Source: Pyropia yezoensis (taxonomy: Eukaryota > Rhodophyta > Bangiophyceae > Bangiales > Bangiaceae). From it: a stretch of 64,000 nucleotides of DNA. A model generated the notes under the pieces. That model was not told the origin of the DNA. It worked only from the letters and a program-made list of their open reading frames with translations, and made no database searches. The stretch covers positions 21,409,366 through 21,473,365 of the forward strand of contig CM020619.1 of NCBI GenBank assembly GCA_009829735.1, read 5' to 3'. Both the position numbers and the translations under genes were made by a program. Positions 1 through 17,392 of the stretch are shown here, in pieces. Position 1 is the stretch's first letter; every line of letters begins with the position of its first letter.

Positions 1-2
1 GC

Positions 3-2609
3 CATGCCGAACATGAATCCCATCGCGGGTGCGCCAGCGGTCTCCTCCAGGGGCTCCGAGATGCAGGCCCGCTTGCCCGAACGCAAGGCGTCGTCGACCA
101 GGGAGCGTCTCAGGGGCATGAGGACGTACATACCCGGAAGGACAACTCGATCGGCGTGGGGCACAGCCGAGGCCGGACTCAGATCTCCCTGCAGGGGCCT
201 CAGAACCGCTGGAGCTGCCATGCCGGCTCCGGTGCCCGCCAACGGGTAGATCTCGATCTGGCAACGGCCACGTGATGCGCATAGACCAGAGTCCGTGGCG
301 ACGGCAGACCCAGAGCCGAAAGGATTTCCCTCAATCGAGCTGAGGCACCTGGACAGGACCCAGGAGCTGGACACGTCCTTCGCGGTAGGGGCAGCCTCGA
401 CGGCGACTGTGCGGGTTGCGCCTGCCTTGTCCCTGAACACGAAGCTGACCTTGCCGTCCACCTTCATCTCGCTCACGAGATCCTCGATGGGGAAGACCTC
501 CGCCTCCACAGCCTCTGCAAAGATGCCGATCACGGCTATCAGACCGGATGTCATGATCGTCCTCGACCTGGACGTGTGCACGATCGTGGAACAGGCTGTG
601 ACGAGAGACGAGACGACCCTGGGAGAGTCGTTGCGGGCAGGCGCCAGGCCCCTGGTGACGAGGCCGGATCTCCCCATCAGGGTGTAGCACTTCTTCGCGA
701 CCATTCAGGCAGATGCGAAGGTCCCGTCCACCTTGATCTCGATCCCCGCGAACGGCATCCCTGCGATGGACCTCTGGATGAGGCGACAGGCACGGGCAGA
801 CTCGACGTCCAGACTCTCCGAAGACGCATGCCGCAGCGAGATGAAAACCGAATCTGTGTCGCCGTAGACGACGTCGAAGCCCAGCGCCATCTGCTTGACG
901 TAGGCCCTGCCGCAGCACGTGATCGCGGAGGAGCATGCTCTCGACGAGAGGATGCCGTTGGAGCTGCCCATGCTGCCGTAGATGCTCACCGCGAGGATCT
1001 TGTAGGCCCACTGCTGGGCTTCAGCTGCTGGATCCCCTCCGGAACTCCTGGTCCTTGCGGCGGCTCTCCTGGCTCCGAGCACGTCGATGACGCTCCTCAT
1101 GAACATGTTCTCGGACGGGAGCACGATCGAGTACGTGGATCCGTTGAAGGCGATCAGGACGCCGTCCGATGTGAGGATCGTATCCTCGGGCATAGCCTCC
1201 AGGGCTGCCAGGTCGATGCCGGGTAGTGCTCGCGCTGCCTCCGATGCAGTCGCGACCTCCAGCGTGTTTTCGAAGAAGATCGAAACCTCCCTCATGATCG
1301 AAGGGTACAGGGCTCTCCCATCCAGAACCGCAACGTTCCTATGCAGACCCACATGCGGTTCCATGACGAAGCCGCCTCTGAAGACGCTCCTGAGCCTGGC
1401 CTGGCCGCAGTCGAGGAGCAGACCCCTCTGCATGGCAGCCCGAGACATCATGCAGAAGACCATCACGCCCGTGTTGCTCACAGCCGAATCCCACATGGAG
1501 CTCCACGAGCATCTCGCCAGCTCAAGCAGCTTCGCGATCATCCCCGACCTGACGGCTACAGCCGCATGGAGATCCGCGTCACGACAGTTGTACTCGAACA
1601 GGGCGCTGACGTCGTCGTCCTTGCCGGGAGAGAACGTGGCTGCGTGTCCGGTCATCTTCGGGGGAAGGCGTAGGCCCTCGGACACTGCAGACAGCGACAG
1701 CGACTTCCACGCGAACCTCTCCGTCTTGTCGAGACAGTATCTCGGGTCCACGCACGTGATTCCGTTGGGGAGACTCCATGTGACGCCGGATCCCGTGTTG
1801 CCGAGCATGCGCTCCTCGAACTCTGCGTCAGCGCCGGGGACACGAGCGAGGGCGCAGGCCAGGCGGACGAAGTCGAAGGAGTATCAGTTGAAGACGCTCA
1901 CGAAGTCGGGATTGAGATACGCAAGGGCCTCTCTGGCCAGGAAGGCCGCATGCTCGGAGTCGTCTGCCCGCAGGATCACCGCACCCCGTGCCTTCGCCCA
2001 GGAGGCGTCCACGATCTTGCCGACCGTCGTGATGCAGATGCAGACCTCCTCGATCTGCCCATAGCCAACCGTCATCGGGGCGCTTGTCGAGATCGCGATC
2101 GACGTGATGTCCGCATGCGGCAGCGGAAACGCCGTCCCTCCCTCCGTGGAGGCCTGAGAGGTCTCGATGTCGAGTCCGACTGCCACGATGACAGGGTCGT
2201 CGCCATCCAGCTGGACAACCGGGGAGGGCGTCACGCCGGGCAAGTAGCCCATGATCGAGGCGGCTCTCAGATCTCCCACGGGAGAGCCTATGCCGGGCAC
2301 GAGGACGAAGTCGTGATCCCCATCGGCAACGCTCGCGTTCACCACAGGCCGAAGCCCAGTCGCCAAGGCCACCATCGCAGTCACGATGAACCTAGCCGTG
2401 CCCCTGCCGAGGCGGATTCCGATGAAGGCGCGATCTGCACAGCGATGCCCATCCCGGTTGCCCCAGCGCGACACGAGGTCCCTGTGACAGCGACGGCTGA
2501 GAGGGAAGGCACAGACTATGTGCCAGCCCGCATCCAGCAGAGCGCGAACATCGCCATCGCAGAGGACACCCTCACGGATCTCGAGACCAAGCAGACGCCC
2601 CGCATCCAT
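3..2609 (-). CDS. Family B DNA polymerase, C-terminus off the window, with two in-frame TGA codons
   Basis: Template-directed DNA synthesis with 3'-5' proofreading. Counting from the ATG at 2609, the exonuclease domain shows Exo I (DIET, about residue 147), Exo II (FN-stop-YSFDF, about 240-246) and Exo III (YNCRDAD, about 340). The polymerase domain shows motif A (DGRALYPSIM, about 430), motif B (KILAVSIYGS, about 538, with Val where the family usually has Asn) and motif C (VYGDTDS, about 582). A KKxY-type palm/thumb motif (MVAKKCY) follows near 637. The frame is continuous for 869 codons to the window edge except for TGA at residues 242 (1884-1886) and 635 (705-707); there is no TAA, TAG or frameshift. 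Motif spacing resembles cellular and large-DNA-virus polymerases rather than protein-primed ones. The two TGAs are either nonsense mutations in a decaying copy or read as sense. The family call is secure; functionality is uncertain. Confidence 0.9.
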
Positions 2610-2693
2610 CTCGAAGCCTGCGCCTTGCCGCGAAACAGCCAGATCTGACCCCGAGGACGTGCCGCTGCAGGAGATCTCAAGGCAGTCTCTCCG
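2610..2693. promoter_or_regulatory. Short divergent intergenic region between polymerase and helicase
   Basis: The polymerase (minus) and helicase (plus) start back to back here, so promoters for both must lie in or near this stretch. I see no TATA box or other recognisable element. Assigned by position only. Confidence 0.3.
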
Positions 2694-4286
2694 GTGACCG
2701 GCAACGCGTTGGACGCCACGATGATCTCGAATGCGCTGATCGCCACGACGTGGATTCTGCCTCGGACCATACCGGATGCGGTGCAGATCGACGGCGACTG
2801 CGAGGGCAACCGCCAGCTCATCGACAGCGATGTGGTCGAGACCACGGACGGGACCAGAGTCCGGATCAGCAGACATCCGTTCTCCCAAGAGGCCAGGCAG
2901 GGTCTGGATGAGGAGGGGGTCATCCTTATGGGTATCGCCCTCGATGCCAGGTTCATGACCTACGACGGAGCCCACTACTTCTTCAGCGCCCAGATGATGT
3001 GCTGGTACCAGATCTGCACGACGACCTGTGCGACAGAGCTTCTCCGCCTGCTGGATGTCATGGCTCCCGTGAACTTCTCCACTGCGTTCGCGAGATTCAT
3101 ACCCCTGATCGCACGCATGTGCATCCCCCTGTCTGGCGCCCCCAAGAGCATCTGCGTCGGGACAGACCGGCTGACGTATTCGGTACCGGCCGATCTCACA
3201 TCGATCTCGTTCAGGCAGTGCCTGAGCCTTGTCAGCCCAAGCGTTGCCAGAGCCGGTCTCGACGCCGTCATCGGGGACGTCCAGTCGATGTTCTGCACGA
3301 GCCCGATCGAGTGGAGGCACATCCCTGTCGAGATCATGCCTGACTACGACAACGAGGCCGTGAACGCTCTCCTCGAGCCCCTCCGGGAGGATCAGCGCAG
3401 AGACTTCCTGTGGCGCATCGGCTCGATGCTCGTGGACTCGTCGGCAAGGCCGTGTGTCGTGATCCTGTACGGGCCCAACGGGAGCGAGGGAAAGGGCTCT
3501 CTCATGGCGTCGGTGGCCAAGGCGTTTCCCGGGACGATGATGTGGGTCTCCGAGGACCTGATAGGGGCGAAGGCGAAGATGCCGTCTGGCGTGCAGCTTG
3601 CGGGATGGGCACAGTGCCGCGGGATCGTCTGCGACGAGGTCGCCGTGAAGGACGGGATGAACTACGACTGCATCAAGAGATGGACGTCGAACAGCCCCGT
3701 GGACGTGGAGGGAATGAAGCTCGTGCTGAGCCAGACCATCTTCGCCACCACAAACGGACTGGGCTTCATGGAGAGGTCCTCGATGACGAACAGCATCGGT
3801 CGTCGCCTGGTCATCCACTCGATGAGCAAGTCCTTCTCGCAGGCCCCTGGCAGTGTTCCCGAGATCACGCAGGGTGTGTCCCTGCAGCTGCTGGCCAGGG
3901 CGCATGTGGAGTTCGAGGCCTCGGCCCATCCGCCAATCTCGATCGAGATCGCCATGGTCACCGCATTCAGGAGGTCAGTCGGCTTCGTCACAGGGGGACT
4001 CGTCTTGGATCCCGATGCGACACCGTGCCAGTGCAGAACTGCGATGATGGTCATGCGTGTCAGATGCGGCGTGAAAGCCAACAGGATCGCCAGCACCTTC
4101 CAGGCGATGAACCCCGCGCTCGTCGTGATGCCCAGCAAGCCATGGGAGACGGCGTACATCGCCGGAATCAGATGCAGAGCCGTCGGGCTGACCGATTGGG
4201 GACGGGAACTCGCAGCTGCGAGAGAGGCTCGGAACGACAGGACCGTCGACCTCGATGAGATCCTCAGCCTGGTGCGCAGATTCTGA
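2694..4286 (+). CDS. Superfamily 3 (D5-like) helicase
   Basis: Hexameric replicative helicase of the type found in DNA viruses, plasmids and phages. Counting from the GTG at 2694, residues 258-270 hold a P-loop (LYGPNGSEGKGSL). Residues 311-316 hold Walker B (IVCDEV). Near 350-357 is the SF3 motif C/sensor (FATTNGL), followed by the RR pair of the arginine-finger region (GRRLV, about 369-373) and a SKSF segment typical of the SF3 C-terminus. The P-loop is unusual, with one extra residue before GK and Gly after the Lys where Ser/Thr is common. No primase domain was recognised in the first 250 residues. The start is unsure: GTG at 2694, ATG at 2721, or further upstream, since the frame is open back to a TGA at 2646. 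Divergent to the polymerase, which supports a shared replication role. Confidence 0.85.
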   Translation: MTGNALDATMISNALIATTWILPRTIPDAVQIDGDCEGNRQLIDSDVVETTDGTRVRISRHPFSQEARQGLDEEGVILMGIALDARFMTYDGAHYFFSAQMMCWYQICTTTCATELLRLLDVMAPVNFSTAFARFIPLIARMCIPLSGAPKSICVGTDRLTYSVPADLTSISFRQCLSLVSPSVARAGLDAVIGDVQSMFCTSPIEWRHIPVEIMPDYDNEAVNALLEPLREDQRRDFLWRIGSMLVDSSARPCVVILYGPNGSEGKGSLMASVAKAFPGTMMWVSEDLIGAKAKMPSGVQLAGWAQCRGIVCDEVAVKDGMNYDCIKRWTSNSPVDVEGMKLVLSQTIFATTNGLGFMERSSMTNSIGRRLVIHSMSKSFSQAPGSVPEITQGVSLQLLARAHVEFEASAHPPISIEIAMVTAFRRSVGFVTGGLVLDPDATPCQCRTAMMVMRVRCGVKANRIASTFQAMNPALVVMPSKPWETAYIAGIRCRAVGLTDWGRELAAAREARNDRTVDLDEILSLVRRF

Positions 4287-4440
4287 TGCGGAACCCAAAA
4301 CTCTGCCGTCGCACGATCGGGCGCAGTGCCGAATGAGATGACACTCGTTGGAGGTCACCAGCACCGCGTCCTCGGCCTGCATGTTGGCGAACACCTGCGT
4401 GTCTTGGCTGAAGTCTCTCGTCACCGGAACCTGCACCGAA

Positions 4441-6117
4441 ATGTCTCCGAGCCCGATGCAGAAGAAGTCCGCGGCTGAGATCCTGGCTGAGCTCATGGAG
4501 GCCCGATCTCCCGCATCTGCTGCTGCAGGCTCTCCCGTTCCTCTGGGCGGAGGCCTTTCTCCGTCTCTGACCTCGCAGGCGACCAGAGACATCAACGGCG
4601 ACAGCGCTCAGGATCAGACCCACCCTCAGGCAGACGACGTCAACCGCAACCTCATCGGTGCCGATCAGGATACCGGTCTGGAGGCCGTTGCCGATGCGCT
4701 TGCGGACGTCTCTGTGGTCGCCGGGGCCGTGCCCTCTGCCGATCTGTCCGAGAAGGGGAAGCCCGAGCCGGCTGCTGAGGCCGCTGCAGCGGATCGTGCG
4801 GATGCCCGTGCGGGAGCCTCCTCCGGGACTGTGCCTGTGCAGGCGCCTGTGGATACCCGCACGGACGACCTGATGAAGATCGTAGCCGAGATGAAGGTGA
4901 GGATGGACCGGAAAGATGCCGAGATCGATGCCCTGAGGGCTGCTGCCAGCGCTCCTGCAGCTCCCGCGGCTCCCCGAGCTCCTGCCCCGGCACCGGCACC
5001 GGCGACGGCTGCGCCCAAGACGACGGCAAACCCCTTCGCATCCGCATCGGCCACCGCAACGGCCATCGGCCCCGGGTCTGTCATCGGAGGCGCTTCCATC
5101 GGGAACGCCACGAACGATCCCCCGAAGGATCCTCTGAACGTCCAGATGATGGCAAAGTATGCGGCCTCTCTTGTGCCCAAGCTCGCCAGGGTCGGCAGCA
5201 CGCGCTCTGGGTCGTCGGGAGATCAGACGAAGTACATGAGCATCGGCCAGACAGGCGTTGTCTCCGTCAACAGGATGGGCTCCATCAACTTCATCGACCT
5301 CACGGAGCCCTCCACGGTGGTCTGCATCGGACCTCCTCGTCCTGTCTTTTCGGGGGCGACTCCGAGGGTGTATGTGGATGTCTGCGTGAGCATCGCTGAC
5401 GGTGCCGTTCTGATGTCGCAGATGCGCTGCGAGGGCGTTGTCATCGAGGGCGTCACTGCGCGTTCCCGTGGCCGGTCCAATGCGGCGTCGAAGCGGCAGG
5501 TGGGCACGGATTTCGAGCGCATGGGTCTGCCTCGCGGGGCTTTCGATCCGATCTTCAAGGCGATGGAGGAGATGATGTCCGGTTGCACTGCGGAGCTGAA
5601 GACGTCGGAGACCTACTTCTGGCTCAACGCCAGCTGGGGTGTGGGAGGCTCGCCTGCCTCGATCACGTACATGACGCAGCTGGCAGGTCGGCCTATGCCT
5701 ACGACAACCGAGAGCATCGCGGATGTCCTTGGGCGTCTCAAGGGGAAGTCTTCCATCGGCACTGCCATGATCGGCCTGTCCATGTCGGCCACAGAGCGCA
5801 TCGACACCGTCACGGGCGCCAGAGTGTCTGCGGATCCCAAGATGTCCGCAAAGATGTACGGGTTCGTCATGACAGGCCACGGCGACTACCACGGCCCGGC
5901 TCTGGCCAGCAGCTACGGAATCTTGATGGACGACGCGACCTACAAGGTGATGTCCTCGGCTCCTGTGGTTCCCAGTGGGATGAGCTTGGCGCAGATGTCT
6001 CCGGTTGTCAGCGTGTTCGGCTCCCAGGCTCCGATGTCGGCTTTCGGCCCTCCGGCTGCGACCCCGTCGGGAGGCTCGGATGCGGGCGTGTCCGGCAGCG
6101 GCAACCTGTTCGGCTGA
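4441..6117 (+). CDS. Unrecognised protein with coiled coil, Ala/Pro linker and C-terminal domain
   Basis: No family recognised. The likely start is the ATG at 4441 (MSPSPMQKK; the next ATG is 4459), giving 558 residues; the frame is open further upstream but loses protein character. The N-terminal part is acidic and Ala-rich. A short charged heptad-like helix (KIVAEMKVRMDRKDAEIDAL) precedes a pure Ala/Pro linker, then a C-terminal region of about 350 residues with mixed composition, and a Gly/Ser/Pro tail. This layout (disordered head, coiled coil, linker, globular tail) recurs in the gene at 9615. A structural or DNA-binding role is possible but unproven. It follows the helicase on the same strand by 154 bp and ends in TGA. 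Confidence 0.7.
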   Translation: MSPSPMQKKSAAEILAELMEARSPASAAAGSPVPLGGGLSPSLTSQATRDINGDSAQDQTHPQADDVNRNLIGADQDTGLEAVADALADVSVVAGAVPSADLSEKGKPEPAAEAAAADRADARAGASSGTVPVQAPVDTRTDDLMKIVAEMKVRMDRKDAEIDALRAAASAPAAPAAPRAPAPAPAPATAAPKTTANPFASASATATAIGPGSVIGGASIGNATNDPPKDPLNVQMMAKYAASLVPKLARVGSTRSGSSGDQTKYMSIGQTGVVSVNRMGSINFIDLTEPSTVVCIGPPRPVFSGATPRVYVDVCVSIADGAVLMSQMRCEGVVIEGVTARSRGRSNAASKRQVGTDFERMGLPRGAFDPIFKAMEEMMSGCTAELKTSETYFWLNASWGVGGSPASITYMTQLAGRPMPTTTESIADVLGRLKGKSSIGTAMIGLSMSATERIDTVTGARVSADPKMSAKMYGFVMTGHGDYHGPALASSYGILMDDATYKVMSSAPVVPSGMSLAQMSPVVSVFGSQAPMSAFGPPAATPSGGSDAGVSGSGNLFG

Positions 6118-6320
6118 GGCTGAGCAGAGCTCTGGGCCTGGGGACGTGCCTGGGCGCGACGCCGCTTGTGGTGGTTACTGCCGTGCTGGCGACGACTGCC
6201 TGAGGCGGCCCACGTAGTGCAGCTCCCGTTGCCTGAGACGTGCTGCTTCGCATTGCATCTCCAAAACCCGGCTGGAACCCGTTGGCGGAGACGTTGTCCT
6301 GAGGCTGCAGCATCGCAGTC

Positions 6321-8375
6321 ATGATCCGTTCGGTCGTCGCAGGCGCCCTCGGCGAGGACCAGCATGGGCCTTCGGACATCTCAGACGCCCTGACCACGTC
6401 CAGGCAGATCGCCGTCATGGCTGTGACAGCCGCTGCCAGACTGATAGTCGAATGCACTCCCGTGATGGACACGACTGCCTCCATCCCCGTTGTCAGAGCC
6501 ATTCTGCTCACAGCCCTGAACTGCCCGTTCCAGACCATCTACATCGCGGGGAGGCCCTATCCTCGAGACCTGCTCCCGCCCATCGCGTCTGCCCTTGCGT
6601 TCTGCCCCTGGGCATGCCCCACGATGACGCCCACCGTCCAGGTCATGGCCTCCATCATGGTGAGGGATATGCTTGACGGCAAGCCCGGGGCTCTGGCGAC
6701 GCTAAACAGGGGGAGGAGCGAGGCGGAGATGTATCTGGCTCTCGGCATGATTCTCAGGATGAACTACGTCCTGATGCCGTATGGGATCTCCATGCTCAAC
6801 GCCATGCCCTTCGTCCTTGCCAGGCAGACTTCGAGTTCCGAGATCTTCGTCAGGTCCCGTGTCAGCGAGTTCGTGGCCACGATCGTGCACATCCACGCGC
6901 GTCTGGACGTGAAACCCAAGATCGTGACCATGGGGGCTTCGGCTTCGGCTATGATCTCGGACGAATTCGCAGCCTTTCCGGCGACGAGGAGGATGTGCAC
7001 AACCGTGAGGACGGGCAACCCAGCTGCTGTGGCCAGGAGGTCTGAAGGATCCCATCTCGACATCGACGGCGGCGACCACGTCTGTCTCCTCGACCACACG
7101 CCATGCGAACTCCGCCTGATGACCGCGACTGGAACTCTCTCCGATCGTCTGATGGTGACGGCTCGTGAGCTGATGACGTATTCGAGCGCGGACATGGGAG
7201 ACATGGCAGACCCATCGACATGCCACTCGTTGCTGGGCACGATCGCGGTCACCTCTGTCGATGACGCTGTCGATATCCTGTCGGAGCAGCTGATCACTGT
7301 CGCAGCCATCATGGAAGCCCTGCCAGCTGCCGCGCCCTTCGCGAAGCTGCTCCCGATCTCATCCGGAGAAGCCTTCGGCTCTGGCCAGACAACCGGGGTC
7401 CACGTGGACGGGCCTGACGGATCGTCGGGGAAGATGAGCATGCAGCACATGATGGCGACCAGAGGTATCTCCTCTCTCAGGGCAGCCGGGAACAGCACGT
7501 TCATGCGCCTCCGCAACAAGGACGGCACCGCCAACGTCACTCAGGAGTCCATTGTGGTGGACAGCATCAACGCGATCATCAGAGACGTCTCCAAGAAGGT
7601 CACGATGGCCTCGAAGGATTTGGCGGCCGTTGCCAGTCGTCTGGATCAGGGTGATGTCAAGAATGTCGAGCAGGCGTTCAACGAGAGCATCGTGGGCTTC
7701 ATCAAGGCCCTGGACGAGGGCACGCAGCTTCTCGAGGGGTTCGGCGCCATCTTCGAGGGAGGCATGGGGGTTGTCGAGCAGGAGTGGGGATCGTCTGCGC
7801 CTCTCATGCGGCATCCAGACGGCAGTGCGAGGGAGAGTCTCATCTTCGCGGAGTCACGCGGACAGGTTCCGGGCCAGGCGCCTGGGGCTGCATCTGGGTC
7901 TCAGAGCGGGGGCCATCAGGTCGATCCCCATGCTCAGGCAGCGGACGGCGAAGCGCCAGCCGATCCGGATCAGGCAGAGATCTCCTTCGGGGACATCGAC
8001 ACGATCATGGGCACGTCCTCAGTTCCGCAGCCTTTCCCGGCAGGGCCACCGGCAGACGACGGACAAGGACAGGCACAGCCATCTCCTGCGTCAGCGCAGC
8101 AGCCGAACGAGACCGTTTCTGGGGCCGAGCTCTGCACGCCTGGCAAGCGCCGTCTGGCGGATATCGCTGAGGATGAGGCTGGCGCCGACCAGAAAGTCCT
8201 CGACCTGGATCTCTCTCCCGGCATCAAGCTCGGGCAGGTCCTGGACATCTTCGCGACAGACGGCACGATCGACGCAGACCAGGTGAATGCCCTTGTGGCG
8301 ACCGCTAGGCAGAGCGAGAAAGTCCTCGACGACGTCGTCGAACAGCTAGCCCAGATGGCTGCCAGCCGCACCTGA
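6321..8375 (+). CDS. Unrecognised 684-residue protein of the virus-like island
   Basis: No family recognised. The ATG at 6321 gives 684 residues with an intact frame. The first 450 residues look folded, with hydrophobic helices and many Met residues. A stretch around 410-490 is predicted-helical and charged (for example KNVEQAFNESIVGFIKALDEG). Residues of about 510-600 are Gly/Gln/Pro-rich and probably disordered, and the last 80 residues return to helical composition. It is the largest intact gene of the island, on the same strand as its neighbours and 203 bp after the previous gene. By size and position it could be a structural protein or a replication accessory; the sequence does not decide. 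It ends in TGA. Confidence 0.7.
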   Translation: MIRSVVAGALGEDQHGPSDISDALTTSRQIAVMAVTAAARLIVECTPVMDTTASIPVVRAILLTALNCPFQTIYIAGRPYPRDLLPPIASALAFCPWACPTMTPTVQVMASIMVRDMLDGKPGALATLNRGRSEAEMYLALGMILRMNYVLMPYGISMLNAMPFVLARQTSSSEIFVRSRVSEFVATIVHIHARLDVKPKIVTMGASASAMISDEFAAFPATRRMCTTVRTGNPAAVARRSEGSHLDIDGGDHVCLLDHTPCELRLMTATGTLSDRLMVTARELMTYSSADMGDMADPSTCHSLLGTIAVTSVDDAVDILSEQLITVAAIMEALPAAAPFAKLLPISSGEAFGSGQTTGVHVDGPDGSSGKMSMQHMMATRGISSLRAAGNSTFMRLRNKDGTANVTQESIVVDSINAIIRDVSKKVTMASKDLAAVASRLDQGDVKNVEQAFNESIVGFIKALDEGTQLLEGFGAIFEGGMGVVEQEWGSSAPLMRHPDGSARESLIFAESRGQVPGQAPGAASGSQSGGHQVDPHAQAADGEAPADPDQAEISFGDIDTIMGTSSVPQPFPAGPPADDGQGQAQPSPASAQQPNETVSGAELCTPGKRRLADIAEDEAGADQKVLDLDLSPGIKLGQVLDIFATDGTIDADQVNALVATARQSEKVLDDVVEQLAQMAASRT

Positions 8376-8760
8376 TCCGGCGACAGAGTCTCGGCAGACG
8401 GGACGACGCCTGTGAACCCTCAAGGGCAGACCGCCAAAAGCTCCGCGACGACGGCTGCGATGACCGCGATGGGACTCAACACGTTGCCGGGGACGGCGTC
8501 CTGAGACGGATCCAGAACTGGGGCATCGGCAGATCACGACCTCGGCTATGGAAGCCGCAAGGGGCAGCCCTATGGCAGCCTACATCGACAAGCTCGTCCG
8601 GGAGACACCCCATCTGAGATGCACATCGTGCAGCATGCGATCTACGGGCTCAGACTACGACGCGATGTCCCTGAGGATCGGGATGTCCACATGCATGAAG
8701 CATATCGGAGAGGGCACGAGGAGGGCTACGTCTGCGACGAGGATCGTGCGTTCCCTTCCG
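8376..8760. other. Spacer before the exonuclease gene
   Basis: There is no separate gene here that I can defend. The exonuclease frame is open upstream back to a TGA at 8461, with ATG codons at 8548 and 8572 among others, so the exonuclease may carry up to about 70 extra N-terminal residues. I chose the internal ATG at 8761 because the conserved domain starts immediately after it. Confidence 0.4.
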
Positions 8761-9420
8761 ATGACCAAGCTGGTCGTCTTCCTGGACTTCGAAACCGAGC
8801 TGGATCCCGGGCGTACTCCCTGGCAGATCGGCGCCATGACCTCATCCGGAGCGACTTTCAGTGCGATGATAACGCTCCCAGATAGGCAGATGCCCAGGAG
8901 GCTGCGCTCTCACCGCCTGGTGGCAGAGGGAAAGCTCCTGGCAAGGACCACGTATGCGCTTCTGGCAGAGCCCGAGACTGTCGTCGTCAAGAGGCTCATC
9001 GCGTGGATCATGGAGCAGGCAAGGCTCGAGATCATCAGCTCGGAAGGCACTGAGAGGGCTCCCTCCTTCAGCGACATCGTCGTGGTATCCCACTACGGCT
9101 CTCAGCACGACTCCGTTGTCCTGGCCAGCGCCATCAGGAGATCGGGCATCCGCGTCCACGGGTTCATCGTATGCGACAGCGTCCTGCTGTTCAAGCTGAT
9201 GTTCGGAGCGACAGCCCCATGCTCTCTCGGCAGCCTCAAGGAGGAGTTCGCTCCCGAAGTCTATCTGCCCGCCCACGAGGCCGAGACCGACGCAGAGGCT
9301 CTCCGCGCCATTGTCATGGTCCAGCCCATGTGGATGACAGCTGTCATGTCCACGTCCACGCCCATCCATGCCTTCCTCACAGCCTCAGGCTTCTGGACAT
9401 CCAGGTCGAGGTCCCTCTGA
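8761..9420 (+). CDS. DEDDh (DnaQ-like) 3'-5' exonuclease
   Basis: Exonuclease of the RNase T/DnaQ fold, which removes nucleotides from 3' ends using two metal ions. From the ATG at 8761, motif I (FLDFETEL, Asp9 and Glu11) starts at residue 7. Motif II is HYGSQHD (Asp117), and motif III is HEAETDA (His172 and Asp177), the His giving the DEDDh subtype. At 219 residues it matches a stand-alone exonuclease domain. Because the island's polymerase has its own exonuclease domain, this second enzyme could do separate proofreading, primer removal or end processing. The frame is intact and ends in TGA at 9418; it would stay open for about 58 more codons if that TGA were read through. Confidence 0.8.
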   Translation: MTKLVVFLDFETELDPGRTPWQIGAMTSSGATFSAMITLPDRQMPRRLRSHRLVAEGKLLARTTYALLAEPETVVVKRLIAWIMEQARLEIISSEGTERAPSFSDIVVVSHYGSQHDSVVLASAIRRSGIRVHGFIVCDSVLLFKLMFGATAPCSLGSLKEEFAPEVYLPAHEAETDAEALRAIVMVQPMWMTAVMSTSTPIHAFLTASGFWTSRSRSL

Positions 9421-9614
9421 TCGGCTTGCGGACACGGCAGGGCCTGTGCCTGCGGCATGCAAGACGCTTGCGGCATCCGCGTAGACTCGAGGCCGATGAG
9501 GGATCCACTCGTTCAGGGTGACGAGTTCTGCACCGTAGCTGTTCCAGCTGCTCCTTCCGTTTCTCCGCTGGAGTCCCCTCTCGTAGCCGATGCCTGAGAG
9601 GGCTGACTGCGCCG

Positions 9615-10754
9615 ATGTCTGATCTCGAGGGGCTGGGCCCAGACAGGACTCCTGCAGATGCGGATGACAATCAGGGCGACGACCAGGGCGGCGATGTCGT
9701 TGACGGTGGCGTGAGGGCGCTCGTCGAGAGTCTCAGGGCGAAGGTGGAAGTCTCCAGGACTGCGCCTCAGTCTGATCGCGTGAGGGCTCTCGAAGACGAC
9801 AGCAGAATCTTGGCGATGCGGATCACGTCAGTCGAGCGCGAGATGAGGGTCATTAGGGATGACATTCTCAGCCTGAAGGCGCAGATCGTGAGGCCCGCCG
9901 TGGAGACTGCCGCGCTGGTGCCCTCCTCCAGCTCCGTAGTGCCCCGATCAGGTCCTGGACTGCCTCTGCCGCAGAAGCCCCGCGAGTACTCCCCCTCGCA
10001 GAGCGCTTTCGCACCGAGCGGGGATCTGAGCATCGCGAACACGCCCCCATACGTCCTGTCGCCGACCTTCCCGAGCACGCCCTCGTCCGTCGGATCTGGC
10101 GGGAGCAGGAGCAGCGGCAAGGACACCTACTCGAAGAAGCATCAGGTCTGGGCTGTGGCAAAGCTCTCGTACATCGCCATGGTCGTGCACATGTGCAACC
10201 GCAAGTCGATCTCCACGGGCGCCTTCGACGTATCCGAAGCGCTTCCCAGGATGGTTGCCGTGAAAAACGGGACTTACAAGTCCGTGACAGGCTCCGAGCT
10301 CCCTGGCCTGGAAGAGGCTCAGACGGCTTACATCCGGGGCTGCATGTCCCGCAGGACAACGACGGAGGTCCCGACGACGACTGCCCAGGTCTGGATGACC
10401 CTGAAATCGAATCCGCAAGGGCTGCGGGCTGTGACCGTGGTCGGGAACGTGATCAGGGGTCTGCGCAAGGTGCGGTGGATGATAGGCTGGCCGTACTCGT
10501 CTCTGATCCCCCATATCGGCCCGAACCTCGTCACTGTCGGCCCTGCAGGCGCTGAGGCCGTTCCGGTTGTCTCTTCGGACTTCTCGCGCTACGGCTTCGG
10601 CAGCGCCGCCTCTGCGGATGCGTTTTTCATGTCCCTCTCGATGGAGCATCTCAGGTCCTTCGCCATGAGGATGCCCCTGCCCGGGTTCACCGCCTATGCC
10701 GCAATCGAGTCGATGGGCCTCTGTTCTCCGCCTGGCATCCAGCCCGATCAGTGA
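9615..10754 (+). CDS. Unrecognised protein with N-terminal coiled coil and Ser/Pro linker
   Basis: No family recognised. The ATG at 9615 gives 379 residues. The head is acidic (Asp/Gly-rich, 1-32). Residues of about 33-95 form a charged heptad-like helix (for example RALEDDSRILAMRITSVERE) expected to make a coiled coil. A Ser/Pro/Gly-rich linker (about 105-170) leads to a C-terminal region of about 210 residues that looks folded and contains most of the Trp and Tyr. The plan resembles the gene at 4441, so the two may be paralogous in architecture or serve related structural roles. It ends in TGA only 21 bp from the convergent gene on the other strand. Confidence 0.7.
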   Translation: MSDLEGLGPDRTPADADDNQGDDQGGDVVDGGVRALVESLRAKVEVSRTAPQSDRVRALEDDSRILAMRITSVEREMRVIRDDILSLKAQIVRPAVETAALVPSSSSVVPRSGPGLPLPQKPREYSPSQSAFAPSGDLSIANTPPYVLSPTFPSTPSSVGSGGSRSSGKDTYSKKHQVWAVAKLSYIAMVVHMCNRKSISTGAFDVSEALPRMVAVKNGTYKSVTGSELPGLEEAQTAYIRGCMSRRTTTEVPTTTAQVWMTLKSNPQGLRAVTVVGNVIRGLRKVRWMIGWPYSSLIPHIGPNLVTVGPAGAEAVPVVSSDFSRYGFGSAASADAFFMSLSMEHLRSFAMRMPLPGFTAYAAIESMGLCSPPGIQPDQ

Positions 10755-10775
10755 ACCGCATCCCGACGAGCAGGG

Positions 10776-11486
10776 CTACAGCCTGCGGGATCGACGGCAC
10801 CTGCCCAGGAGACCGGACATCGAGGAGAACTCAGGCCTGGGCATCGCATGGGATCTCAGATTGAGCCGATCCGACAGCTCTTGCAGAGCGGGGTGATCCT
10901 CGAGGAGCCTCCCAGAGTCCTCAGAAGACCTTCCGATGTCCACGCCCATGGCCCTCAGGTATCCCAGACCTGTGCGGCCTGCCAGAGCCCTGGAGAAGTT
11001 CGATATCGTCACGGAGACGCTGACTGCCTCGGCTATGCGCCAGACAGAGGCGAAGCTCCGGATCTCGAAGCCCGGCCAGGACACCGTGAGATGTGAGAAG
11101 CTGAAGCCTCTGCAGGACATGGCCGCGATGACGACCAGCGTCGGATTGGCCACGGCCGGCATGTTGCGCCAGCGATGCTCCACCCTCGTCATGACGGCGT
11201 TCACGATCGCATCCGTGTACAGCTCAGCTGCAACGTCGGTGTCGAGCACGATGACAGGGCCTTCCACGCCGGCGGCGATCTCGCTTGCAGAGCGAGGGTC
11301 AGCGCGAGTGACGGGCACCACATCGGCAACCGCCATCTCACCCAGACAGGACATCACAGCGGCAGACATGACGATCTCCTGGGCCTCCGCCACGGCCACG
11401 AGGACGTCCGTCTCCGCGAACGCTTTGGGGGTCACAGCGGGGCCTGGAGACTCTCGGAGGCCTTGCACGTCGGCAGAGATCTGCAT
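10776..11486 (-). CDS. Unrecognised 236-residue protein
   Basis: No family recognised. The ATG at 11486 (MQISADVQGL) gives 236 residues ending in TAG, the only clearly non-TGA end in the island. The composition is that of a folded protein, with alternating hydrophobic and charged stretches such as GPVIVLDTDVAAELYTDAIV. The minus-strand frame was preferred over the overlapping plus-strand frame (10936-11490) because the latter is Ser/Thr/Ala-rich with little hydrophobic patterning. It starts 11 bp from the divergent gene at 11498 and ends 21 bp from the convergent gene at 10754. Confidence 0.6.
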   Translation of the reverse strand: MQISADVQGLRESPGPAVTPKAFAETDVLVAVAEAQEIVMSAAVMSCLGEMAVADVVPVTRADPRSASEIAAGVEGPVIVLDTDVAAELYTDAIVNAVMTRVEHRWRNMPAVANPTLVVIAAMSCRGFSFSHLTVSWPGFEIRSFASVWRIAEAVSVSVTISNFSRALAGRTGLGYLRAMGVDIGRSSEDSGRLLEDHPALQELSDRLNLRSHAMPRPEFSSMSGLLGRCRRSRRL

Positions 11487-11497
11487 CTGACTCCGCG

Positions 11498-12472
11498 ATG
11501 TATTCGGCGATGGGCATGGGAAGGGCCTTCGGCAGCGGCGTAGGCATGGCCCGGGCGAGAGTTCGGGATCAGAGAGCAGATCGAGAGGCGAATGCAGCTG
11601 CCCGTGCACGTCTGATCGAGAGGATTGGGGACAGCCTCCCCCCGTCGACTCCCTACCACGTCATCCGCGACCAGATCTTCTCCGTCCTCAGCTCCAGAGG
11701 TGTCCCGTCTCTCGACATCTTCACAGAATTGTTCGTCGGGCGCTTTCGAAGAGGCATGGGCCATGCAGGCCTGGCAGAGGATCTGACGCGGAGGCTGCTT
11801 GTGGTGCACGAGGTGGAGACCCGCAGCGTCAAGGTCACCGTATGGACTCCCGAGCCGGTGCTTAGCACGATGATCATCGTCAGCGACACGTCGGACCTCA
11901 GCCTGTGCGGTGCTCATCTCCACAAGGTCGAGCCCATCCTGCGCGACATCGACGGCCCCATGGGAACCCGCATCGACGCGAGCAGCATGAGAGGCAGATG
12001 GTCGGGCTGGTTGGCCTACCAGCAGGGGCTTGCGGATCCCACGTGGGACTGCCGCTGCGTCAGCGTCAACCTCTCCTGCTCCGCGATCTACTTCGGGGTC
12101 CACATCGAGGGACGTCCCGTGGAGCAGTGCGTCATGACGGTCTCGAGCATGGAGATGATCCAGGCAACCTTCTCTGATGGGCAGGTCACGCCTGAGGTGG
12201 CGGTGATGTGGGGCTCGGGCATGGTCACCCAGCTCGTCCTCTGCATGTCGACGAATGGAGATCGCAGCACGATGAAGATCTTCTCGGATGGGATGACGCA
12301 GCTCTGCGGGCGTCCGGACTCGATCACACGCCTCTGCGGTGCCCTGCGGACGGCGGTTTTGAGGACTTTCACGGCGAACCCTGCGGCGTTCCTGCGCACG
12401 ACCAGAGTCGTCGAGAGAGGCATCGGCATCAGCCCGTCGTGGAGACCACCGAACCCGCAGCAGTGCCCGTGA
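11498..12472 (+). CDS. Unrecognised 324-residue protein
   Basis: No family recognised. The ATG at 11498 gives 324 residues. After a basic, Met/Gly-rich head the sequence is typical of a folded protein, with regular beta-like stretches (for example SVKVTVWTPEPVLSTMIIVS) and several Trp and Cys residues (PTWDCRCVSVNLSC). The last 25 residues are Arg/Pro-rich and less convincing. The end is TGA at 12470, 19 bp from the end of the convergent gene. Reading that TGA as sense would extend the frame to a TAG at 12566 and overlap the neighbour. Confidence 0.65.
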   Translation: MYSAMGMGRAFGSGVGMARARVRDQRADREANAAARARLIERIGDSLPPSTPYHVIRDQIFSVLSSRGVPSLDIFTELFVGRFRRGMGHAGLAEDLTRRLLVVHEVETRSVKVTVWTPEPVLSTMIIVSDTSDLSLCGAHLHKVEPILRDIDGPMGTRIDASSMRGRWSGWLAYQQGLADPTWDCRCVSVNLSCSAIYFGVHIEGRPVEQCVMTVSSMEMIQATFSDGQVTPEVAVMWGSGMVTQLVLCMSTNGDRSTMKIFSDGMTQLCGRPDSITRLCGALRTAVLRTFTANPAAFLRTTRVVERGIGISPSWRPPNPQQCP

Positions 12473-12491
12473 ACGTTCCCGTGCTGGGATC

Positions 12492-13259
12492 TCAAAACGT
12501 CCTCATGGCGGCTGCCACATCGAAGTTGCCCGTCAGCATCGCACCGTGATAGCTTGTCGCCATCGTAGCCGTCATCTCGCGTCTGCCCGACGGGATATCC
12601 TGAAGCCACCCGTAGTCTGAGCATATCGTGCCGCTGTACCAGCCCATGCCCGTTGCCCGGCAGAAGTCCACATCCCCGTCCGCAGAGCCGGGTTCGATCG
12701 AGGGGCAGGCCCGAGTTCGGGCGCAGATGAAGATCGCCATGGGCGTGACCTGGGCCGGGGTCAGGGATATCCCGTCGATCGCACAGGCAGCTGCCACCAT
12801 CGTCCTGGTAGCCGCAATCATCTTGGGCATCGATATGCCTGAGACGCAGACCGACACGAGACTCTCTCGGCCGATGAGGGTGCAGCCTGAGGGTATCTCC
12901 TGACTATCGTCATCCTTGCCGATGAGAGTCAGACGTGAACTGCTGGGGGATATCGCATAGGCACCCCCGATCATGCCCATGAGCATGCCCATGGCGCTGG
13001 GCGCAGAGGCCTTCGAGGCGTGCTTCGCCCTGTCGAGGTTGCCCTGATGGGCCGTCTTCATCGTCGAGCAGACCGCTGAGCATGCGTCTGCGGATGAGAT
13101 CCCGTGACCGAGAGGCAGTGCCACTGCCAGGTGCGTCAGACAGCCATCGGCATCCGATCTGATTCCCGCAGAGGTGGGGCTTGTCGTGACGGAGGAGGCC
13201 TGCATGGCCAGCTTGCGCATGAGGCTGTAGGTCTCCGGGACGCTGTGCTTGCTCATCAT
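12492..13259 (-). CDS. Unrecognised protein, possibly truncated at its N-terminus by the minisatellite
   Basis: No family recognised. The first credible ATG is at 13259 (MMSKHSVPE), giving 255 residues, rich in Ser, Ala, Met and Cys with several short hydrophobic helices. The frame stays open upstream into the 81-bp repeat array that starts about 40 bp away. The true N-terminus may therefore have been lost or replaced by repeat sequence, and this marks the right edge of the island. It ends in TGA, 19 bp from the convergent gene. Confidence 0.55.
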   Translation of the reverse strand: MMSKHSVPETYSLMRKLAMQASSVTTSPTSAGIRSDADGCLTHLAVALPLGHGISSADACSAVCSTMKTAHQGNLDRAKHASKASAPSAMGMLMGMIGGAYAISPSSSRLTLIGKDDDSQEIPSGCTLIGRESLVSVCVSGISMPKMIAATRTMVAAACAIDGISLTPAQVTPMAIFICARTRACPSIEPGSADGDVDFCRATGMGWYSGTICSDYGWLQDIPSGRREMTATMATSYHGAMLTGNFDVAAAMRTF

Positions 13260-14230
13260 CTGGCTGACGATGCCCTTCTCGAACTGGGCCACGCCCCCCA
13301 CGCCAGGGCAGGGGCAAGTCGGGGAGGGGGGGCAGCACCAGCTACCGCACCCCCCACCCCACTGGACGGCCACATCCCCCATTCCAGGGCAGGGGCAAGG
13401 CGGGGGGGGGGCACAGGACCAGGTACTGCACCAACCACCCCACTTGGCGGCGGCGCTCCCCATTCCAGGGCAGGGGCAAGTCGGGGAGGGGGGGCAGCAC
13501 CAGCAACAGCACCCCCCACCCCACTGGAAGGCCACATCCCCCATTCCAGGGCAGGGGCAAGGCGGGGGGGGGGCACAGGACCAGGTACTCCACCACCCAC
13601 CCCACTTGGCGGCGGCGCTCCCCATTCCAGGGCAGGGGCAAGGCGGGGGGGGGGCACAGGATCAGGTACTCCATCACCAACCTGACTGGACGGCCACATC
13701 CCCCATTCCAGGGCAGGGGCAAGGCGGGGGGGGGGCACAGGAGCAGGAACTCCACCACCTACCCCACTTGGCGGCGGCGCCCCCCACGCCAGGGCAGGGG
13801 CAAGGCGGGGGCGGGGCACAGGAGCAGGAACTCCACCACCCGACCCACTTGGCGGCGGCGCTCCCCATTCCAGGGCAGGGGCAAGTCGGGGGGGGGGCGG
13901 CCAAAGGGCGGCGGGGGGCAGCGGCCAGAGGCCGGCACGGGCTGGCTGCCAGCCAGGGACCGGAACGTAGTGCCTGGTCGCAGTCCTTGGAGGCGTCGTC
14001 ACGGCCACGGCCGCCGCTGGTCGTCTTGCCAGAGCCGCGGCGGCAGCCTTTCGCTCCAGGCGCCGCACTTTGGCCCGCTCATTGCCTCTTTCACGTTCCT
14101 CGGGGTCTCGCTCCCGAGTCACAGGCATGGTGGAGAAGGCGGTGAGGGGAGTACCGTCGGAGGGGGCGACGGGTGGAGCAGAAGGCGTTAAAGCATTCGT
14201 GGTGGGTGACGACGGCGGACGGTGGCGCAT
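13256..14230 (-). CDS. Possible repeat-containing protein, 324 codons
   Basis: A minus-strand frame begins with a non-repetitive head of about 110 residues. The head includes a highly charged helix (RERDPEERERGNERAKVRR) and then an Ala/Arg-rich stretch. The frame then runs through the 81-bp array as about 27-residue Pro/Gly/Trp repeats. It is open on other frames too, as expected for a repeat with a period divisible by three, so only the charged head argues for real coding. Overlaps the N-terminal side of the gene at 12492-13259. Low confidence. Confidence 0.2.
   Translation of the reverse strand: MRHRPPSSPTTNALTPSAPPVAPSDGTPLTAFSTMPVTRERDPEERERGNERAKVRRLERKAAAAALARRPAAAVAVTTPPRTATRHYVPVPGWQPARAGLWPLPPAALWPPPPRLAPALEWGAPPPSGSGGGVPAPVPRPRLAPALAWGAPPPSGVGGGVPAPVPPPRLAPALEWGMWPSSQVGDGVPDPVPPPRLAPALEWGAPPPSGVGGGVPGPVPPPRLAPALEWGMWPSSGVGGAVAGAAPPPRLAPALEWGAPPPSGVVGAVPGPVPPPRLAPALEWGMWPSSGVGGAVAGAAPPPRLAPALAWGAWPSSRRASSAR
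13296..13905. repeat. Minisatellite, about eight copies of an 81-bp unit
   Basis: The core CCAGGGCAGGGGCAA recurs at about 13305, 13386, 13466, 13547, 13629, 13710, 13791 and 13871, a period of 80-82 bp. Units alternate in the block just upstream of the core (GGACGGCCACAT against GGCGGCGGCGCT), so a higher-order dimer of about 162 bp is visible. G-runs of 7-11 vary between copies. Because 81 is a multiple of three, long frames run through it on both strands. Confidence 0.9.
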
Positions 14231-14339
14231 GCGCGCGGCATCCTTTCTGCTGAGGCAGGACGCGTGGGGAGCCTAGCGGCCACTCGGAGGCTGCATAGGA
14301 GGGGGCCGCGACAAACCATCCGTGCGCGTGGCGGCTGCG

Positions 14340-14654
14340 GGGGAGGCGGGGATGGGGAGGGGCTAGTCGCCATGCATCCGGCCGTCGGCTGCCGGAGGAT
14401 ACTGTTTCCTGCAGGTGGCTGCACGAGGAGGCGAGGAGAGGGAGGAGGCGGGGATGGGGAGGGGCAAGTCGCCATGCATCCGGCCGTCGGCTGCCGGGGG
14501 ACACTGTCCCCTGCAGGTGGCTGCACGAGGAGGCGAGGAGAGGGAGGAGGCGGGGATGGGGAGGGGCAAGTCGCCATGCATCCGGCCGTCGGCTGCCGGG
14601 GGACACTGTCCCCTGCAGGTGGCTGCACGAGGAGGCGAGGAGAGGGAGGAGGCA
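14340..14654. repeat. Three copies of a 102-bp tandem repeat
   Basis: The segment TCGCCATGCATCCGGCCGTC starts at 14367, 14469 and 14571, a period of exactly 102 bp. Copies two and three are nearly identical; the first differs by a few substitutions. Confidence 0.9.
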
Positions 14655-14659
14655 GGATG

Positions 14660-14925
14660 GGGGGCAGCGCGCTGCCCTGCCCAATGGGAGCGCCCGCGAG
14701 GTGCGGTATTGGGCAGGGCAGCGCGCTGCCCTGCCCAATGGGAGCGCCCGCGGGGCGCGGTATTGGGCAGGGCAGCGCGCTGCCCTGCCCAATGGGAGCG
14801 CCCGCGGGGCGCGGTATTGGGCAGGGCAGCGCGCTGCCCTGCCCAATGGGAGCGCCCGCGGGGCGCGGTATTGGGCAGGGCAGCGCGCTGCCCTGCCCAA
14901 TGGGAGCGCCCACGGGGCGCGGTAT
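14660..14925. repeat. 54-bp tandem array built on a perfect 32-bp palindrome
   Basis: Five units with a 54-bp period. Four contain a perfect 32-bp palindrome (14708-14739, 14762-14793, 14816-14847, 14870-14901) made of ATTGGGCAGGGCAGCG followed directly by its reverse complement. The first unit has only the right part. Each unit could extrude as a cruciform or fold as a hairpin in RNA. Confidence 0.95.
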
Positions 14926-15074
14926 CCCACCCCCTGCGCTCCACTCCTTCCTTCCACGCCTCTCCGCCTGCCCCTCCCACTCCCCCCCCCTCACCTCCCC
15001 CCCATTCGCCCACTCCCACGCCCCACTGGTATCATTTGGGGGGGCGACGGAGGTGGATGTATGTACTGTACACG

Positions 15075-15150
15075 TCAATGACGATGTTGAGGTGGGCGCC
15101 CAGCTCCTCCGTGCGGCCCACGTAATCGACCCTGCACTCACCCGGCCCGT
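15075..15150 (-). pseudogene. Possible sulfotransferase exon fragment
   Basis: The minus strand reads CRVDYVGRTEELGAHLN, which resembles the conserved (F/Y)VGRxExL segment near the C-terminus of many sulfotransferases. No other part of such a gene was found nearby. It could be one exon of a broken gene, or chance. Confidence 0.25.
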
Positions 15151-15290
15151 GACCAATGTGCGGCCGGGCACCGCCTACCCACCCGTCCTCCTCACCGCTG
15201 GCCTGAATGACCCGCGGGTGGGGTCTTGGGAGGCGGCCAAGATGGCCGCCCACCTGGCCACCTCACCCACCCTCCCCCCCGCCTCCGCCG
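15150..15290 (+). pseudogene. Fragment of an oligopeptidase B / prolyl oligopeptidase (S9) gene
   Basis: The plus strand reads YPPVLLTAGLNDPRVGSWE followed by AAKMAAHL. This matches the segment of S9A peptidases around the catalytic Asp of the Ser-Asp-His triad (LVTxGLxDPRV, then W-E-xAK). The upstream nucleophile region and the downstream catalytic His region are absent; the following sequence is an Ala/Thr tract and a basic tail. It is a single exon or a gene relic captured between repeats, not a working enzyme. Confidence 0.5.
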
Positions 15291-15759
15291 CCGCCACCGC
15301 CGCCACCGCCGCCTCCACCGCGCGGGCGGCGCCAACCACCCGCAAGGCGGCCGCCGTTGGCGGCGGTGGGGGTGTGTACGCCGGGGGGGTGGTGGCACTT
15401 CGACGGCGCTTTAGGCGGGCAACGGGACGTAAGCTAGCAGAACAAAAGAGGAAGAAAGAAGAAAAAGTCCAGGGCCAAGGGAAACGAAAACGGGAAACAG
15501 CTCCTTCCTCCCCCCCTGACACCCGACGGCACCACGGCCGCGCGTGCGGGCGCCTCGCAGCCGGCCCACCCCCCACACGGCCACTGATCCCACCAGGGAA
15601 GGAGGCACCCAGCCACGACGGGTCTGTCACGACGCCGCGTCAGAGGGACAGCAGAGGCGCCTCCACCGAGAGCACTGGCCGCTCGCGGGGCGAGCAGAGT
15701 ACAGTACTGTATGTACATATAGTACAGTGACGTGGCCGACACGGTCGCGTCATCCACAG

Positions 15760-15988
15760 CGCAAACAACCCCCCCTCAACTTTCCAGCCCGACCCCCATT
15801 CCCCGCCTGCCATCCGCTCGACGCGCGCGACGAGCGCCGACACGAGGCCCAGCCGCCGGTACTTGGCGCGGACGGCCATGGAGGAGAGGTACACCCGCCG
15901 CTCCCGGTCCAGCCGGGCCGGCCGCCGCCGCAGGCCGCGGCCGTCGCCGTCGCCGTCGCCGTCCCCGTCACCGTCACCGTCACCGTCG

Positions 15989-16025
<37 letters not shown>

Positions 16026-16434
16026 CCAGCCGCACAATATTGGGCAGCAGCCCGTCGAGCGACAGCCGCCCACCCGTCTCGGCGTCGTGCACCGCCGCGT
16101 CGACCGACGCGACGACCACCCCGTCGGGGGTGTCCAGCGGCGGCCGCGACGAGGCGGCGGAGGAGAGGAAGAAGTGCAGCGCCGCCGCCCACCCAGCGTC
16201 GGGCGCGGCGGCGACCGCATCGCGGCCGGGGGAGGGAGAGAGCGCCGAGGCGCCGAAAGAGAACGCGAAGGGCGCGCCGAGACGAGCCGCACCTTGAGGG
16301 TGGCGGCAACACCGATGCATCCGGAGCAACAAGGGATCTAAATAGGAGGTACCCCGACCTGGTTGTTTAAACTCTCGAAGTAGTCGGGGGAAACCGGCGG
16401 GGTGCGGAACATCCCTGAAAGTCGAGGCAGCCAC
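15760..16434 (-). CDS. Partial GNAT-type N-acetyltransferase
   Basis: The minus strand reads RRVYLSSMAVRAKYRRLGLV then SALVARVERMA, the core of the GNAT fold where acetyl-CoA binds (beta 4 followed by the RRxGxG/A loop and helix). Before it lie about 120 residues compatible with the N-terminal half of the domain, interrupted by a Gly/Asp-repeat tract encoded by the poly-C run and a GTC-rich microsatellite. The C-terminal half (the usual N-P-A-x-x-L-Y-x-x-x-G-F segment) is missing; the frame continues as non-conserved sequence. It is either an exon followed by an intron I cannot place or a truncated gene. The start is uncertain; the ATG at 16434 is the most upstream. Confidence 0.45.
15990..16024. 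repeat. Uninterrupted poly-C run of about 35 bases
   Basis: Pure C run next to a GTC/ACC microsatellite, within the GNAT-like frame. Length is likely unreliable in any assembly. Confidence 0.9.
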
Positions 16435-16971
16435 GCACCACGGTGCCGACGGCCGGCTAGTCGAAGCTCGACTCGCTCAGCCGTGGCCACCGGGCTCACG
16501 AAGAGCTTCTGCTGTCGGAGCGCCCCCCCCCCTCCCCCCTCCCGCCCCTCTACGGCCGCCGGCGTCGGCCTCGGTGTCGGCGTCGGCAACGCCGCCGCCG
16601 CGCCGGCTGCGGCGACGGCGTCCCCCCTGGCAAGTTTCCCCCCCCTGGCGAGCTTCCCCCCCCCCCCCCCCCCCCCCCCGCCCGGCGGCGACCCACGTGC
16701 GCGCAGAAGCTACTGCGCGTCCCCCCCCCACCCCGTCCCAACCGCCCCCACAGCCCCCGCCACCCGTCTTCTCCGCAGTCCGCCGTGGGTGGTGGTGGCT
16801 ACCCCGGCCGCCGCGGCGGCGGCCGCACCCCCCCTGTCCCCCGCGCGCCGCCTCGCCCGCCTCTGCTGACGCCCCCGCGGTGGCCCCGTGTCGCCGCCGC
16901 CGCCGCCGCCGCTGCTGCCGTCGCCGCCGCCGCCGCCGCTGCCGCCGCCGCCGCCGTCTCCGTCAGCGGGG
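16435..16971. other. GC-rich low-complexity spacer
   Basis: Long C runs and CGC/GCC trinucleotide repeats; no gene can be defended. The right edge at about 16971 is a sharp junction with the retroelement B remnant. Confidence 0.6.
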
Positions 16972-17012: not shown

Positions 17013-17375
17013 TATAGCACAATAGGAATCCGTCGCACGTCCACTCTCAGGGAACACTCACCAAGGGGGATCGGCACCAACGTCACCGGGAGGCCAAGGT
17101 TGCTGTCCTTGGAGCACAAGCCACGGGACCAAGATGGGAGCCCAAATGGGAGGGGTTTGTTGTTCTACCTTGGCCGGCGGTGGATTCGCCGCCGGCCCCC
17201 ACGTTATAAACCCTCGGAGACACTACTAACTACCCTCCACCCCAAGATGCAAGTCCCTCTGGTCATACGTAACTTATAGATACCGTGACCAGTACGAACT
17301 ATCAAATTGAAAGTTAAGGGTTAGAAGTAGCCCCCCTGATATTAGGGTTACAATACGGCCAACCATATTGCTACA
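17013..17375 (-). repeat. 3' LTR of element A
   Basis: 363 bp, same length as its partner. Ends are TGTAGCA and TGCTA(C/T)A; here the terminal CA has become TA. On the plus strand it carries TATAAA at 17205-17210, pointing toward the 789-codon ORF. On the minus strand it reads CTATAAG at about 17272-17278, in the sense direction. Confidence 0.95.
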
Positions 17376-17392
17376 TATCCCCCCCTTAGATT
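17376..17392 (-). other. Polypurine tract of element A
   Basis: On the minus strand the sequence just before the 3' LTR is AAGGGGGGGATA, as expected for the plus-strand primer of reverse transcription. Confidence 0.7.

Follow-up and report, generated by a model that had tools for sequence, protein, structure and literature searches.

The window analyzed was a stretch of 64,000 nucleotides of Pyropia yezoensis DNA (C2:21409366-21473365), in a genome of 107.5 Mb and 11 contigs. The 50 kb to its left (L002) were also taken, with their ORFs listed by script, giving 114 kb in total. A virus-like island of about 15.08 kb (15,076-15,081 bp) was found between window -1790/-1789 and window 13287-13292. 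Nine coding units lie within the window, six of them without annotation. The features of the island, in window coordinates unless marked L002, were as follows.

L002:8211-9143 (window -1789 to -857), minus strand: RPB2 fragment (PF00562, PDB and NCBIfam matches)
1..2400, minus strand: family B DNA polymerase frame, broken (PF00136; codon signal in one frame)
2721..4286, plus strand: 521-aa SF3-type helicase, open (phrog_1156; Walker-like motifs by eye; P. vietnamensis homologue)
4381..6117, plus strand: 578-aa protein with Ala/Pro-rich N-terminal part, open (codon scoring)
6321..8375, plus strand: 684-aa protein, open (codon scoring; relative P0004)
8548..9420, plus strand: 290-aa protein with DEDDh-exonuclease-like motifs, open (motifs by eye)
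9615..10754, plus strand: 379-aa protein, open (codon scoring)
10776..11486, minus strand: 236-aa protein, open (codon scoring, 0.204 per codon)
11498..12472, plus strand: 324-aa protein, open, weak TBP-like pattern by eye (codon scoring)
12492..13259, minus strand: 255-aa protein (codon signal; frame open to the right edge)
13287..13292, no strand: right edge, where virus-like DNA gives way to a dispersed host repeat carrying an 81-bp minisatellite (tandem array from 13287; copy alignment from 13292)

The polymerase and RPB2 run leftward, and the helicase and most other genes rightward, from the stretch at about 2400-2720. Convergent gaps measured 21 bp (10754/10776) and 19 bp (12472/12492), and the divergent starts were 11 bp apart (11486/11498). 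The eight genes other than the polymerase have open frames and seven of them terminate in TGA. In leave-one-out codon scoring the gene's own frame was the best of six for all eight genes scored, with the opposite-strand mirror frame always a fairly close second. At 10776-11486 the minus frame scored better than an overlapping plus ORF (0.273 vs 0.178 over the overlap). The coordinates and the codon scoring bear out the nine tightly packed units of the preliminary description. Frame length was compared with 100 replicates of a second-order Markov null, in which the longest ORF averaged 314 aa and reached at most 526 aa. The 684-, 578- and 521-aa frames lay beyond or at the edge of this null. 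Frames of 236-324 aa were not improbable by length (null mean of 3.26 ORFs of at least 230 aa, maximum 7), so these genes rest on codon usage and tiling. Length alone can mislead as coding evidence, since a 681-aa frame runs opposite the helicase (1884-3929, minus strand) and was taken as mostly a mirror frame. The N-terminus of the 255-aa protein may be cut, as its frame reaches the right edge without a stop and with a coding-like signal. Scans of the window for tRNA and against Rfam returned no match.

In the assembly, host repeats that also occur elsewhere fix both edges within a few bases. The left edge is at L002:8210/8211. A 95.4% copy of the left flank (L002:5445-8210) lies at C1 33.87 Mb, and the similarity ends at L002:8210. 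From the island side RPB2 similarity reaches the same point, which means that RPB2 is cut by the edge. Dispersed host repeats make up the right flank, and a 92% copy at C2 33.14 Mb aligns from window 13292 onward. A tandem array begins at this edge, which leaves its position uncertain to about 5 bp. The element had been placed from position 3 onward, with the minisatellite named as a place where a mis-join might have occurred. It starts 1,790 bases left of the window, its right end lies near window 13,291, and the minisatellite is part of the dispersed host repeat. The suggestion that the island might be half of a larger element extending past the left end of the window was broadly right, but only 1.8 kb more remains on that side. 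Past the edge, the left-flank copy gave nothing but short weak matches to the right flank and to the remainder of the 114 kb, and an empty site was therefore not recovered.

Composition changes sharply at both edges. The 63%-GC composition continues 1.8 kb left of the window. GC runs of at least 5 numbered 0-2 per 500 bp in segments wholly within the island and 1-12 outside, in agreement with the earlier observation of fewer runs than in the host genes on the right. In genome searches 2500-4300 and 4381-13259 were single copy by DNA, and the helicase, RPB2 and polymerase were single copy by protein (the polymerase query also found two host polymerases).

Several other sequence properties of the region were recorded. 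Window 13292-16970 is a dispersed repeat with 81-, 102- and 54-bp minisatellites and 92-97% copies on C1, C2 and C3, one copy lying about 17 kb left of the island. Adjoining the right flank, window 17015-17900 is a repeat of which at least 33 more near-full copies (98-99% identity) occur genome-wide; it is probably part of a retroelement. In the island (window 1-13200) CTAG was depleted (observed/expected 0.34 vs 0.88 in the host stretch 17501-47000) and TATA was absent (1.01 in the host stretch). A GATC excess (11.2 vs 2.6 per kb) was rejected as a restriction signature, being explained by trimer make-up (observed/expected 0.95).

The family B polymerase was matched by PF00136 (2.6e-24) on the piece at 708-1883. 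It is not intact. In-frame TGA codons interrupt it at 1884-1886, in a motif judged by eye to be ExoII-like, and at 705-707, directly before a KKCY motif, with alignable residues on both sides of the two codons. The codon signal fades near 2400 and the start position is not fixed. On the left, the frame continues beyond the window to a third TGA (L002:9337-9339, window about -663 to -661), which is either a lesion or the true gene end. The protein-primed family PF03175 gave no match at E up to 10 in the three polymerase pieces, for which PF00136 alone was listed. Identity to the host polymerases was 25-27% in MAFFT alignments, which rules out a recent host origin. At least 80 polymerase loci were found in viral contigs, at 20-30% identity. 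Of these, 38 were taken for a tree and one (L075) was dropped as it was without the DTDS motif. The tree had 41 rows, comprising 37 viral-contig loci, two host polymerases, P0003 and the island. The island polymerase formed a long orphan branch (end branch 2.8, support 20) and took no resolved place. In a protein search the polymerase piece found its own cluster, which holds 4 member sequences and 89 contigs of up to 15,871 bp. One distant DNA polymerase was found at 28%, in a search whose length limit would miss full-length polymerases.

The absence of an RNA polymerase in the preliminary description no longer holds. The fragment directly left of the window was matched by PF00562 (7.9e-14) and by RNA polymerase B/beta subunits in PDB and NCBIfam, with archaeal subunits best (PDB 1.1e-8). 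It is cut mid-domain at the left island edge and its region switches frame near L002:9121-9143. The length expected of an RPB2 includes an N-terminal part, for which there is no room between the polymerase and the fragment. Identity to the host RPB2-type genes was 22-26% (MAFFT), so the fragment is not a recent host copy and a recent host origin was ruled out. PF00562 was found at three other places in the genome (L013-L015). One of these, L015 (C2:9102600-9103730), contains a TAG in frame and seems to be a decayed near-copy of L013, an RPB2-type gene. RPB1 domain matches were found at three genome loci, none of them in the island. In viral contigs 49 pattern stretches were found for RPB2, of which none was confirmed.

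The 521-aa protein was matched by phrog_1156 'DNA primase' (7.9e-7) over residues 214-332, its ATPase/helicase part. By sequence it resembles the helicase part of a primase-helicase. Judged as a D5-like primase-helicase, it showed this match over the helicase part, no primase domain and no Pfam, PDB or NCBIfam match. A protein search found one relative, P. vietnamensis MMPV_006415 (P0001), at 57-58% identity on a 1.07-Mb contig. At least one island gene, on this similarity, has a relative in another nori species. No helicase relative was found in the viral, phage and prokaryote collections as searched. None was confirmed in the viral contigs, a phage origin was rejected with no relative confirmed in 50,697 phage records, and a prokaryote origin was rejected as none of 74 pattern stretches in prokaryote contigs (two peptide patterns) was confirmed. 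A model of the helicase built with its one homologue had a pLDDT of 32.

Profile searches of the nine proteins supported the polymerase and the helicase named in the preliminary description; the others gave nothing above cut-off. The exonuclease is a candidate named by its motifs, with profile tests under significance. DEDDh-type motifs occur in the right order in the 290-aa protein (by eye). Against three host DEDDh domains, hhalign aligned motif III alone (probability 1.4%, E 0.036), the protein had no Pfam or PDB match, and a genome search with PF00929 did not list the island. For the six unannotated proteins nothing passed the cut-off, with PHROG matches at 0.13 or worse and one NCBIfam match at 4.7. 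Weak Pfam matches under the cut-off were to DUF6389 for the 236-aa protein (0.023) and to DUF1177 for the 255-aa protein (0.089). Pfam and PHROG searches up to E 10 gave no match for the 578-aa protein. A TBP reading of the 324-aa protein was dropped, as profile tests gave no support (hhalign probability 0.4%, no TBP match); a genome search with PF00352 did not list the island and the model of this protein had a pLDDT of 36. A second TATA-binding-protein copy, split over two frames, was seen on contig C10 (L103/L104, C10:4531-5052).

The protein searches with the helicase, the polymerase piece and the 684-aa protein each scored roughly 8,000 candidates sharing most words. P0004 was 96% identical to the 684-aa protein (27 changes), with the same length, no indel and the same end residue. 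Its cluster at 90% identity had 29 members and 4 contigs (longest 15,253 bp, source lgn). Contigs just over 15.08 kb (15,253 and 15,871 bp) would be expected if short reads were assembled over a unique, integrated stretch flanked by repeats. They could also represent a free element of that size. Public resequencing data, described as 34 P. yezoensis samples together with P. tenera and others (PMC8189503), may be a source of such contigs.

The best reading of the island is a decaying endogenous fragment of a Bangiales large-DNA-virus lineage not otherwise seen here. The island is likely what remains, over about 15.08 kb, of a large double-stranded DNA virus genome, integrated in P. yezoensis chromosome S2. 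Decayed nuclear insertions of Nucleocytoviricota are known in algae and protists. As for an endogenous viral element, foreign genes have host nuclear DNA on either side in the assembly, and viral genes are decayed or truncated, with two TGA codons in the polymerase and a frame switch and cut in RPB2. The abrupt edges, the left one inside RPB2, and the two broken genes point to a decayed fragment. The earlier idea of virus-like replication genes in a nuclear contig was sound; that of a compact, complete plasmid or virus was not. On the viral reading, the leftward polymerase and RPB2 and the rightward helicase block would form one replication and transcription block. Carriage of RPB2 suggests that the source transcribed its genes with its own RNA polymerase. 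A piece of the virus genome would have integrated in chromosome S2, after which the polymerase and RPB2 were broken and eight genes stayed open. The locus cannot now yield a whole polymerase or RPB2, and the fragment would be inert or limited in expression to its open genes. No capsid, packaging ATPase, portal or terminase was identified in the island, as the preliminary description had it for the first two. Pfam scans of the island, including the sequence left of the window where a search for a capsid and ATPase had been suggested, found RPB2 and no double jelly-roll (DJR) capsid PF04451, A32 ATPase or VLTF3. PF04451 had no match genome-wide in a search in which the controls were also silent. 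A 15-kb fragment is small and need not hold a capsid gene; the missing genes probably lay beyond the island edges, and the source was probably a virus, not a plasmid.

Capture by the nucleus of a capsidless cytoplasmic or mitochondrial linear plasmid, similar to those of yeast, is rather unlikely. Yeast cytoplasmic linear plasmids are extrachromosomal, carry their own DNA and RNA polymerases, and have fragments in nuclear genomes. RPB2 can be borne by such plasmids, and a DNA polymerase, an RNA polymerase and a helicase with no recognized capsid would suit this origin. However, a protein-primed polymerase (PF03175) would be expected, whereas the island piece matches PF00136, which argues against linear plasmids and polintons alike. 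Both island edges look like cuts rather than plasmid ends, and an SF3 helicase is not a known part of these plasmids.

An old viral arrival, since domesticated by the host with some of the eight open genes kept by selection, is quite improbable. All 3-4 lesions fall in the polymerase and RPB2 (P 0.008-0.027 if even over codons, in a post hoc test that counts a third TGA which is possibly a true end), and the P. vietnamensis helicase is full-length and aligns gap-free after the first ~70 columns. The 27 amino-acid changes in the 684-aa gene, however, fit neutral change (conservativeness P 0.054-0.168; P(no stop) 0.33-0.48; 12 settings). In the P. vietnamensis helicase the acidic residue of Walker B is gone (DE changed to DG, by eye), and the constraint on the helicase may stem from the virus.

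There is very little to favor an assembly error or a contaminant joined at the minisatellite. The sharp composition shifts at both edges would suit such a join, but the minisatellite belongs to a dispersed host repeat, the 114 kb contain 0 N letters and relatives occur in other data sets. The assembly was built from isolated nuclei with PacBio reads, a BioNano optical map and Hi-C (PMC7423979). Together with the P. vietnamensis relative on its 1.07-Mb contig, this answers in part the mis-join concern raised before.

TGA terminates all but one of the eight other genes, and the TGA codons in the polymerase are therefore lesions and not a variant code. The 33 TGG and 0 inner TGA codons in the eight genes are no independent evidence since these genes were called as stop-free frames. 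An intact element reading TGA as tryptophan is scarcely credible, for despite the alignable residues around both polymerase TGA codons, the other genes terminate in TGA, P0004 stops at the same residue as the 684-aa gene and RPB2 also switches frame.

To our knowledge, little is known of the DNA virology of Bangiales. Among the open-access matches listed, a scope mostly outside subscription journals, none described a large DNA virus, or an endogenous element from one, in Pyropia or Porphyra. The words virus and viral are absent from the main text of the P. yezoensis genome paper (PMC7423979). It is conceivable, and put forward tentatively, that a deep, undescribed large-DNA-virus lineage of red seaweeds (Bangiales) shows its first trace here. 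This lineage would have its own RNA polymerase, fall outside the sequenced Nucleocytoviricota and Mirusviricota, and have infected Pyropia repeatedly or for long. Nori, a major crop seaweed, would then carry a large-DNA-virus fossil with its own transcription machinery, and the island would serve as sequence bait for the living virus and as an infection record in Bangiales.

Among known systems, polintons and polinton-like viruses are about 15-20 kb, integrate in protist and algal genomes and carry a family B polymerase or helicase. The island is similar in size, integration and these genes. It differs in having RPB2, in lacking a protein-primed polymerase, and in giving no Pfam match to an integrase, protease or packaging ATPase. 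Mirusvirus genes include PolB, RNApolA, RNApolB, TFIIS, a 3' repair exonuclease and a TATA-binding protein, and the words helicase and primase are absent from the main text of that paper (PMC10132985). The island has PolB and RPB2 in common with Mirusviricota, to which a DEDDh-like candidate and a weak TBP-like candidate (both by eye) may add. No HK97 capsid module was found in it, in libraries used without known mirusvirus sequences or profiles. Some Nucleocytoviricota members carry DNA and RNA polymerases (PMC11253617). The island differs from Nucleocytoviricota in that no DJR capsid, A32 ATPase or VLTF3 was seen in it, its RPB2 is incomplete, and relatives of its proteins were found in Pyropia or short-read contigs alone. 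Nucleocytoviricota carry PolB, an SF3 helicase and RPB2, and the island is like them in its family B polymerase (PF00136) and its RPB2, and may be so in its SF3 helicase, which is of the primase-helicase type. Its gene content, as read from sequence, suits a large DNA virus that has an RNA polymerase of its own, and the island is filed as an endogenous fragment of an unplaced virus of this kind, for which Nucleocytoviricota and Mirusviricota are candidate groups.
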